Shown here: piece after piece, positions 33,104 through 47,578 of the stretch
How positions within the stretch are numbered: position 1 is the stretch's first letter
How the letters are laid out: each line of letters starts with the position of its first letter
Assembly (NCBI GenBank): GCA_947629645.1
Contig: CANREV010000009.1
Coordinates: 1 to 64,000, forward strand
Direction of reading: 5' to 3'
DNA length: 64,000 nt
Source of the DNA: an uncultured Acetatifactor sp.
GTDB lineage: Bacteria > Bacillota > Clostridia > Lachnospirales > Lachnospiraceae
Made by a program: the position numbers and the translations under genes
Notes under the pieces: model-generated
What the model saw: the letters and a program-made list of their open reading frames with translations, nothing else
Databases searched by the model: none
Told to the model about the DNA's origin: nothing

Positions 33104-33256
33104 AATTTCCCTCTCCTAACAATGAAATATGTTTTAAACAACAATGAGAATGATACTACGCTTTTTTTGAAATATCAATATGCAAAATCACCAAATTAGC
33201 GTGAACAAACCAAAAATTGCTGTTGTATTTTACTATATATTTGGTATAATAAAAAT

Positions 33257-33455
33257 AACCTGAGATGCGCGATTACTCCTGTTTATTTTTGAACCTACAT
33301 TTACTTTAAACGGGATTCCTATATTGTCAGGCGGCTGTCAAGCCCTCACTTGCATGCAAGGATTGGAAGGGAAGGCAAAAGTCTGATTGCGGTAACCCAC
33401 CTAGCGCTGCTAGGAGTCAAAAGACAGGGGGCGGCATTTCGGGGGAACATTAACA
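33257..33455 (+). ncRNA. ssrS: probable 6S RNA (ends approximate)
   Basis: Promoter TTGTAT-16-TATAAT (33223-33250); non-coding transcript with TTTTTGAACCTACATTTACTTTAAACGGGATTCC and GTCAAAAGACAGGGGGCGGCATTTCGGGG, which I recognise from Firmicute 6S RNAs; CCT..GCGC / GCGC..AGG closing pairing; terminator-like hairpin at ~33462. Confidence 0.65.
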
Positions 33456-36449: not shown

Positions 36450-36786
36450 GAAATTAGTTAAGAAAAAAGCGTAGAAGGTGAACAGTAGGAGTTTATTCCC
36501 TTACAGAGAGAGGAAGCCGCTGGCTGCAAGCTGCCTCAGGTTCAGATAAACTTTGAATTTCCCACCTGAGCTGCTTTGATGAAAACATCCGATATGGCTG
36601 ATCGGTATGATCCGCCTATGCTGTGAGCGGGCGTTGACGCGCGGCAGAAAGTAAAAAGGTATCGGAGCGTCAGTAGTTTGAGCCGTGAGCGCACGTTATG
36701 CGCGATAAGAGCCTTGTAAAGGAATTTGGGTGGTACCGCGGAAATGATTTCGTCCCATGCACGGTGAGCGTGCATGGGATTTTTAT
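36450..36786 (+). promoter_or_regulatory. T-box leader of pheST, likely Phe (UUC) specifier
   Basis: T-box TGGGTGGTACCGCGGAA (36727-36743); terminator CCCATGCACG-gtgag-CGTGCATGGGATTTTTA (36754-36785); candidate TTC specifier near 36559. Confidence 0.95.
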
Positions 36787-40323: not shown

Positions 40324-40333
40324 TGGAGGTTAA

Positions 40334-40456
40334 TGTGAAAAATCACACTGATGTGCTGATTTTTCACACGGGAGTTTGTGCCGGAGCGTCACAAACTCCC
40401 CTGATGGCAGACGCGAATTTGAGATTCGCGCCGCCCCGTCGCGAGAACGCTCCGGA
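40334..40456 (+). promoter_or_regulatory. highly structured leader/intergenic element with three hairpins and a loop-to-RBS-region complementarity (possible pseudoknot)
   Basis: Arms TGTGAAAAATCA/TGATTTTTCACA (40334-40345/40357-40368); GGGAGTTTGTG/CACAAACTCCC (40370-40380/40390-40400); CGCGAAT/ATTCGCG (40412-40418/40424-40430); loop CCGGAGCGT (40381-40389) = reverse complement of ACGCTCCGG (40447-40455). Confidence 0.8.
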
Positions 40457-40468
40457 ATGGAGGTTAGT

Positions 40469-41893
40469 ATGGAGAGAAAGAACGCGTGGGAAACTTACGA
40501 TGCAAAGCATGAAAAAAAATTGGAAAAGCTGTGTCAGGAATACAGGGAATTTCTGGACAGAGGAAAGACGGAGAGGGAATGTATCGATGTCATTGTAAAT
40601 ACCATTGAAAAAGAAGGATACAGAGAGCTGGAAACTTTGATCAGAAAGGGAGAGAAGCTTTCCAGGGGCGATAAGGTCTACAGCGTGTGCATGAATAAGT
40701 CTGTGGTCATGTTCCAAATCGGCAAAAAGCCGATGGCGGAGGGTATCAATATCCTGGGAGCGCACATCGACAGTCCCAGACTGGATGTGAAACAGAATCC
40801 CCTGTATGAGGACGGCGGGTTTGCCTATCTGGACACCCATTATTACGGCGGCGTCAAGAAATATCAGTGGGTCACCATTCCCCTTGCCATTCACGGCGTG
40901 GTGGTAAAGAAGGACGGCACTACGGTGGAAGTGAACGTGGGGGAGAACGAGGATGATCCCGTATTCTTTGTCTCCGATCTGCTGGTCCATCTGGCGCAGG
41001 AACAGTTGGAAAAGAAAGCCTCCAAAGTCATCGAAGGGGAAGCGCTTGATCTGATCATCGGCAACAGGCCTCTCGCCATTGGAGAAAAAGAGGACGAAAG
41101 CGGGAAAGAGGAGACGGGGAAAGCGAAAGAAGCCGTGAAGAAAGGCATTCTGGAGATCCTGAAAAATAGTTATGACATACAGGAGGAAGATTTTCTGTCT
41201 GCAGAGCTTGAGATCGTCCCCGCGGGTAAAGCCAGGGAATCCGGCTTTGACCGCAGCATGATCCTGGCCTACGGGCAGGATGACAGAGTCTGCGCTTTCA
41301 CCTCCATGCGCGCCATGCTGGATGTGAAAGATACGGACAGGACAGCCTGCTGTATCCTGGTGGACAAAGAGGAGATCGGCTCTGTGGGAGCAACCGGGAT
41401 GAAGTCCAGATTTTTTGAAAACGCTGTGGCGGAGGTGATGGATTTGTGCGGAGAGTACAGCGAGCTGAACGTGAGGAGATGTCTGGCAAAGAGCTGTATG
41501 CTTTCCTCAGATGTAAGCAGCGCCTTCGACCCTTCTTATGCCTCCAGCTTTGACAAGAAAAATGTGGCTTATCTGGGCGGCGGTATGGTGTTCAATAAGT
41601 TTACCGGGGCCAGAGGAAAATCCGGCTCCAATGACGCCAATGCAGAGTATCTGGCTCATTTGAGGAATGTTCTGGACAAAAAGCAGGTCTGCTTCCAGAC
41701 GGCGGAGCTGGGAAAGGTGGATCTGGGCGGCGGTGGAACGATTGCATACATTCTCGCCCGCTACGGCATGAATGTGGTGGACAGCGGGGTAGCGGTGCTG
41801 AATATGCACGCGCCCTGGGAGGCTACCAGTAAAGCGGATGTCTATGAGGCCTACAGAGGATATAAAGCATTTGTGGAAGAGGTCACGATGTGA
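40469..41893 (+). CDS. M18 family aminopeptidase (aminopeptidase 1)
   Basis: [63 protein letters not shown] 40469 preceded by GGAGG. Confidence 0.93.
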
Positions 41894-47269: not shown

Positions 47270-47578
47270 TTAGTTTATGAATACAGACTGACGTTGATGA
47301 GGAGTATTAAGAATATCGGACTTTCAGAGAGCTATCGGGCGGTGGAAGATGGCAGCGAGATATTCCCAACTGGCCTCGGAGTTCTCTCCTGAAGCGTATG
47401 GCGTGGGTAGGGAGGTGCGGCCGATCCCGTTACAGATCAAAAGTGCGCAGTGCGGACCGATGGGCGCAAACGTCCGGTGAAGACGGTTTTTCGCCCTGCG
47501 AATTAGAGTGGTACCACGGAACATGAGCCCTTTCGTCTCTAAATGGCGAAAGGGCTTTTTAGCGCTCCGCGGGAGCGC
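47270..47578 (+). promoter_or_regulatory. T-box leader of leuS, likely Leu (CUC) specifier
   Basis: T-box AGAGTGGTACCACGGAA (~47506-47522); terminator AGCCCTTTCG...CGAAAGGGCTTTTT; candidate CTC specifier near 47384. Confidence 0.93.

Follow-up and report, generated by a model that had tools for sequence, protein, structure and literature searches.

A probably mobile, structured repeat of gut Lachnospiraceae that inserts at translation start sites and appears to replace the ribosome-binding site

The structured element preceding the M18 aminopeptidase gene in the window (the whole 64,000-nucleotide stretch of the uncultured Acetatifactor sp. genome that was analysed) belongs to a family of mobile elements of approximately 135–160 bases in gut Lachnospiraceae. 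We consider it highly probable that the family consists of mobile structured elements that are targeted to translation start sites and replace the ribosome-binding site (RBS) that they displace. The parts of the window copy are listed in Table 1; its boundaries are ambiguous by at most 4 nt. Direct reading of the DNA confirmed all three hairpins proposed in an earlier sequence-only reading, as well as the complementarity between the 9-nt P2 loop and a segment beside the RBS. That segment does adjoin the RBS, but it is not directly before the GGAGG, as had been claimed, because three nucleotides (AAT, 40456–40458) intervene. The structured region folded far better than shuffled sequences (z = −4.43, 0/200). 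No protein gene was found inside the element. No Rfam 15 family reached its gathering score over the window element or in 15 copy-bearing loci, where there was likewise no Rfam model match for HEARO/OMEGA RNAs, and the below-threshold matches to the element were meaningless. When 40333–40466 was deleted in silico, the remaining sequence, pheT-TAA-TGGAGGTTA-GT-ATG, was an ordinary start site, and the RBS of the M18 gene would be the one displaced by the insertion. The GGAGG to the left of the element has counterparts in other copies, which share this arrangement, and in three empty sites, where the native Shine–Dalgarno (SD) sequence is upstream of the junction. Elsewhere in the window, T-box leaders (Rfam RF00230; 99.5 and 103.5 bits) were found on the + strand at 36463–36760 and 47285–47543, and a 6S RNA (RF00013, 70.1 bits) at 33254–33449; because the first T-box precedes pheS-pheT, the M18 gene may belong to a T-box-controlled transcript.

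Table 1. Parts of the element copy in the window and its immediate surroundings.
Feature	Position	Strand	Remarks
Inserted element, 134 nt	40333–40466	+	Starts just after ..GGAGGTTA and ends ..GGAATGGAGGTTA; from comparison of copies with one another and from other copies' empty sites
GGAGG left of the element	40325–40329	+	Putative original SD of the M18 gene, right behind the pheT stop; from the sequence, other copies and empty sites
Hairpin P1, 12 bp, TGTGAAAAATCA/TGATTTTTCACA	40334–40368	+	Base varies between subfamilies; read directly
Hairpin P2, 11 bp, GGGAGTTTGTG/CACAAACTCCC	40370–40400	+	Read directly
P2 loop CCGGAGCGT, pseudoknot 5′ strand	40381–40389	+	Read directly
Hairpin P3, CGCGAAT/ATTCGCG	40412–40430 (40406–40435 with extension)	+	Extension is a GGC/GCC base (40406–40408/40433–40435); read directly
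ACGCTCCGG, pseudoknot 3′ strand	40447–40455	+	From pairing and covariation; its CUCC can alternatively pair with the SD GGAG (energies)
GGAGG, element-borne SD	40459–40463	+	Presumably used by the M18 gene; subfamilies share the consensus GGAATGGAGRTTA-NN-start codon
M18 aminopeptidase gene, downstream	40469–41893	+	ORF with ATG at 40469; PF02127, E = 1.5e-89

In terms of its origin, the sequence-only reading had offered two explanations, a cis-regulatory RNA of undescribed class or a dispersed, RNA-folded repeat that had landed at this site. The second was borne out by the three empty sites and by the many near-identical copies whose flanks are unrelated. The window does hold only one copy of the element, as had been noted, and the host genome has at least 22 more. 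A BLAST comparison of 40325–40470 with the host genome, suggested at the time, returned one copy at 96% identity, four at 81–83% and many weaker ones, and a covariance model (R1) gave 23 matches there, the window copy included; host-genome elements were approximately 134–158 nt long. R1 matches, which give lower bounds on copy number, occurred in 41 of 146 relatives, with two genomes of one neighbouring family also rich in the element, and in 65 of 348 family genomes (62 of the 333 genera sampled). In a phylum-wide sample of 349 genomes, the R1 search found no carrier except the host genome. A pattern search detected up to 71 sites per genome (G086), with none for the reversed-pattern control, and copy numbers ranged from 0 to about 70 among species of a single genus. 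An exact scan of species genomes for CGCTYCGGAATGGAGRTTA retrieved at least 118 stretches, nearly all titled as Lachnospiraceae or other Clostridia.

In several genomes, copies were often 90–100% identical to one another (medians of 0.94 in G086, 0.92 in G139 and 0.90 in G038; others were more mixed), and the identity between genomes was 0.66. Furthermore, in 279 pairs of copies with >93% identity, the downstream flanks were similar at about chance level (median 0.28), and many genomes held a near-homogeneous subfamily of their own with unrelated flanks. Near-identical copies within a genome with unmatched flanks are the signature of separate amplification bursts. We also considered whether a former mobile element has been domesticated as a shared translational module through which many genes answer one trans-acting factor, such as an RNA-binding protein or small RNA. 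The conservation of the GGAGCG loop and its pseudoknot strand across genera and the very large number of copies that some genomes contain are compatible with this; however, decayed copies are common in the host genome, as expected without selection at each site, the subfamilies are largely genome-specific, as recent bursts would give, and no such factor was identified. We therefore regard domestication as rather unlikely. The decayed or internally deleted copies include L018 (G000:C41:24968), L021 (G000:C20), L023 and L027, which retain one end only or just the CTCCGGAATGGAG-RBS module ahead of the start codon. In G038, the loci L273, L274, L279, L282 and L284 are tandem pairs of two element types, in either order and offset by approximately 134 nt, and such composites seem to be propagated as a whole. 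Five contigs of G139 (C1, C5, C6, C32 and C134) start just before or inside a copy, suggesting that the repeat breaks short-read assembly and that copy numbers are underestimated.

Most copies shared a fixed placement relative to the downstream gene. When the host-genome copies were set side by side, nearly all ended in CGCTCCGGAATGGAGATTA-NN-ATG or similar, where an unrelated gene begins, and most of the CGCTYCGGAATGGAGRTTA stretches had, among the matches listed, the next start codon exactly 2 nt after the TTA. In 158 of 172 copies (92%), the start codon fell at the identical model position, and the copies were oriented in the sense of the downstream gene. The genes themselves were diverse: 153 distinct downstream proteins formed 141 unrelated clusters, the largest of which comprised five ABC-transporter-type ATPases, and Pfam assignments in the host genome included an M18 aminopeptidase, a PLD-type phospholipase, DUF624, a PLP enzyme (PALP), an ACT protein and PyrI. 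This diversity is a strong argument against a metabolite riboswitch. Orthologues of the same gene, meanwhile, mostly lacked the element. M18 was matched in 60 of 61 genus members, and among the upstream regions of the 30 M18 loci listed, only those of the host genome and G038 carried the element, the latter as a divergent copy; for trpB, the host genome was the sole carrier among the orthologues examined.

A search with the flanks joined across the element as the query identified three empty sites, all in other species, with flank identities of 82%, 88% and 99%. The closest was in G035, the empty version of a G086 copy: the empty sequence ..GGATTGAATGGGGAGATTA/GTGTGAAGAAGC.. (the slash marks the junction) corresponds to ..GGGGAGATTA[GATTGAAAAATCAC...GCGCTCCGGAATGGGGGTTA]GTGTGAAGAAGC.. 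in the filled site, in which the element is bracketed. This junction is ambiguous by 4 nt (TTAG) and can also be written ..GGGGAGATTA/GTGTGAAG... The other two, in G220 and G412, are empty versions of host-genome copies; at the L012/G412 site, 3 nt (GTG) before CCATG are unaccounted for, which may mean either that a few bases were lost or that the junction lies elsewhere. At all three sites, the native sequence with the SD position is retained to the left, and the gene's own start codon lies to the right, 2 nt past the element, showing that insertion was precise and occurred between the native SD and the start codon. Most copies had TA at the left junction (T 0.76, A 0.91), and TA was likewise found at the right end. 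The element has no terminal inverted repeats, since neither of its ends, GTGTGAAAAATC.. and ..CCGGAATGGAGATTA, is an inverted copy of the other. The similarity of the left and right flanks slightly exceeded that in shuffles, and the target may have been duplicated over a short length or its SD copied in part; a duplication is not proven by this excess, because tandem copies and the SD consensus raise flank similarity by themselves.

Sequence variation among the copies followed the predicted pairing. In an initial alignment of 67 copies scored with P2, P3 and the pseudoknot, 92.2% of cells were paired, compensatory changes on both sides occurred at 18 of 31 pairs (7 of 11 in P2 and 9 of 11 in P3), and the covariation score was 0.268, compared with 0.128 after shuffling and no more than 0.082 after the structure was slid. 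The R1 model was built without the pseudoknot and applied to 100 loci of further genomes. On this alignment, which was not fitted to the pairing, the pseudoknot was paired in 96.0% of cells versus 16–44% when slid, with 62 double-change cells versus 18 in shuffles. Compensatory changes affected 4 of its 9 pairs (C-G to U-A at one, G-C to A-U at two, and U-A to C-G at one, the last in 26 sequences), and entire subfamilies differed in concert: the loop and strand are GGAGCGU/ACGCUCC in the host genome, GGAGCGC/GCGCUCC in G086 and GAAGCGC/GCGCUUC in G139, and the second element type of G038 has a different yet complementary pair, UCAGAGC/GCUCUGA (TCAGAGC/GCTCTGA in the DNA). The base of P1 also covaried, more weakly than P2, P3 and the pseudoknot, and the complement of its terminal 5-mer was retained in 55 of 89 copies (shuffles averaged 31.7, with a maximum of 42). 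G.T cells outnumbered A.C cells by roughly 2:1 (208 versus 97), indicating that it is the mRNA-sense strand that folds. Conservation in the family extends to P2, P3 and the pseudoknot, and the earlier judgement that the loop complementarity was unlikely to arise by chance is upheld by its conservation and covariation in about 180 relatives; the covariation test that had been proposed for the loop and 40447–40455 gave a strong signal, with pairing in 96% of cells. This structural conservation could serve mobility, as folded RNA or single-stranded DNA, instead of translation.

These observations can be assembled into the following scenario for the mobile element. It inserts in the sense orientation at unrelated genes, downstream of the SD and 2 nt short of the start codon, and would thereby part the gene from its own SD. 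The insertion may be tolerated because the 3′ end of the element brings a new SD, GGAATGGAGRTTA, at the right spacing, so that the host gene is probably still translatable, presumably driven by the SD of the element. The pseudoknot pairing leaves out the SD itself. Its P2 loop would capture the CUCC strand, which is otherwise free to pair with the SD GGAG, and the knot would keep the new RBS open and fold the insert into a compact RNA domain. The calculated energies are −16.9 kcal/mol for the knot helix (CUCC with the GGAG of the P2 loop) and about −5.0 kcal/mol for the SD hairpin. Because the knot competes with this weak SD-hiding hairpin, it more probably exposes than occludes the RBS, and we infer a role in translation for it.

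The two mutually exclusive pairings of CUCC also lend themselves to the other original explanation, an undescribed riboswitch-like or protein-responsive cis-regulatory RNA that switches between the pseudoknot (SD free) and the CUCC/GGAG hairpin (SD hidden). In its favour are the location of the element in a 5′ leader, in the sense orientation, and the covarying pseudoknot adjoining the RBS. The part of this explanation that survives is a structured RNA with a genuine pseudoknot between the loop and the RBS side, supported by covariation; the notion of a regulator dedicated to a gene conflicts with the unrelated functions of the 153 downstream proteins in 141 clusters, with the near-identical copies preceding unrelated genes, with the absence of the element from most M18 and trpB orthologues, and with the range from 0 to about 70 copies within one genus. 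We consider this explanation improbable.

The 5′ end of the element often supplies an RTG-AAA-AAT sequence behind the displaced native SD, raising the question of whether the native SD translates an ORF from there, either as an in-frame coding insertion comparable to the Rickettsia palindromic elements or as a leader peptide. An RTG or TTG start was present upstream of P2 in 126 of 172 copies, 93 of which had an SD-like sequence within the preceding 16 nt, and some ORFs continue in frame into the gene, such as the 505-aa ORF from 40376. Nevertheless, frame, length and stop were not conserved, with stops inside the element in 80 copies, near the start codon in 22 and inside the gene in 14, and variation tracked the pairing of the stems instead. 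A coding function is therefore highly unlikely, and the leader peptide was rejected because neither reading frame nor stop position was conserved across the 172 copies. In the window, the M18 frame is open upstream through P2 and P3 (40376–41893, from a TTG), so automatic annotation may place the aminopeptidase start too early.

As for the means of movement, the sequence formed when the two ends of the element are joined, ..GGAGRTTA/GTGTGAAA.., resembles the target, SD-spacer-NN-RTG-AAA, and the junction of an excised circular form would read GGAGATTA/GTGTGAAA. From this likeness to a start site, we hypothesise that an excised form moves by site-specific recombination with translation start sites. 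Neither a mobilising enzyme nor a circular form was found, which we counted against mobility. A REP/IS200-IS605-type or reverse-transcribed repeat, moved by a Y1 transposase or a reverse transcriptase, would be in keeping with the many hairpins, the absence of terminal inverted repeats and the resemblance of the left target to the right end, but Y1_Tnp was unmatched in the high-copy genomes G038, G039 and G042, and RVT_1 was unmatched in G000, G038, G042, G086, G023 and G039. Both enzymes were rejected as mobilisers, as they were missing from several high-copy genomes, and this origin is very improbable. Viral spread was also rejected, the sole IMG/VR match of the 3′ motif (L270) lying within a phage-like coding sequence without the element, and a plasmid search with joined flanks gave just weak matches, which fell in genes for response regulators and in one stretch lacking annotation.

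Taken together, and with confidence a little short of even, we propose that the element homes to initiation regions, probably through joined ends that imitate an SD-start site, and offsets the effect of its insertion by exchanging the RBS for one that the knot keeps open; it would then be a kind of mobile element not previously described, the translational counterpart of a self-splicing intron. A literature search, which reached only a minority of subscription papers and no preprints, brought up no account of such a family, and a prior report is possible. If the proposal is true, a selfish element replaces bacterial RBSs wholesale, up to about 70 times per genome, in gut bacteria. It would offer a test case for how small gene-less elements choose targets and remain harmless, as well as a compact, naturally portable RBS module, and start-site annotation in Lachnospiraceae would benefit.

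Several known systems share single traits with the element. PreQ1-II, SAM-II and SAM/SAH are translational riboswitches with an H-type pseudoknot adjoining the RBS. The element resembles them in having such a pseudoknot by the RBS, whereas its SD lies outside the knot, its downstream genes are unrelated and its copies are mobile. Like self-splicing introns, inteins and IStrons, it is a mobile unit that limits damage to the host gene, but it does so by replacing the RBS, with no splicing and no enzyme gene inside. It shares palindromic structure, intergenic location and species-specific families with REP/RAYT systems, from which it differs in being longer and anchored to start codons and in that Y1_Tnp was not found in several high-copy genomes. 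The Rickettsia palindromic elements (RPEs), which are fused in frame within protein genes (PMC2229807), are likewise palindromic repeats tolerated at genes, whereas the element precedes the start codon and shows no conservation of frame. Its closest counterparts are small bacterial repeats without genes, such as ERIC, RUP, NEMIS and RPE, for several of which, as non-autonomous repeats, terminal inverted repeats, target site duplications and TA termini are listed (PMC2229807). Like ERIC, RUP, Correia/NEMIS, BOX, RPE and bcr1, the element is about 100–160 nt in length, gene-less, dispersed and folded at the RNA level, and, like ERIC/RUP-type repeats, it has TA at the junctions in most copies. 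Unlike the latter, it lacks terminal inverted repeats, contains three hairpins and a covarying pseudoknot, and is sense-oriented at a fixed distance from start codons with an SD of its own. There is a fair chance that this target logic makes the family a kind of its own.
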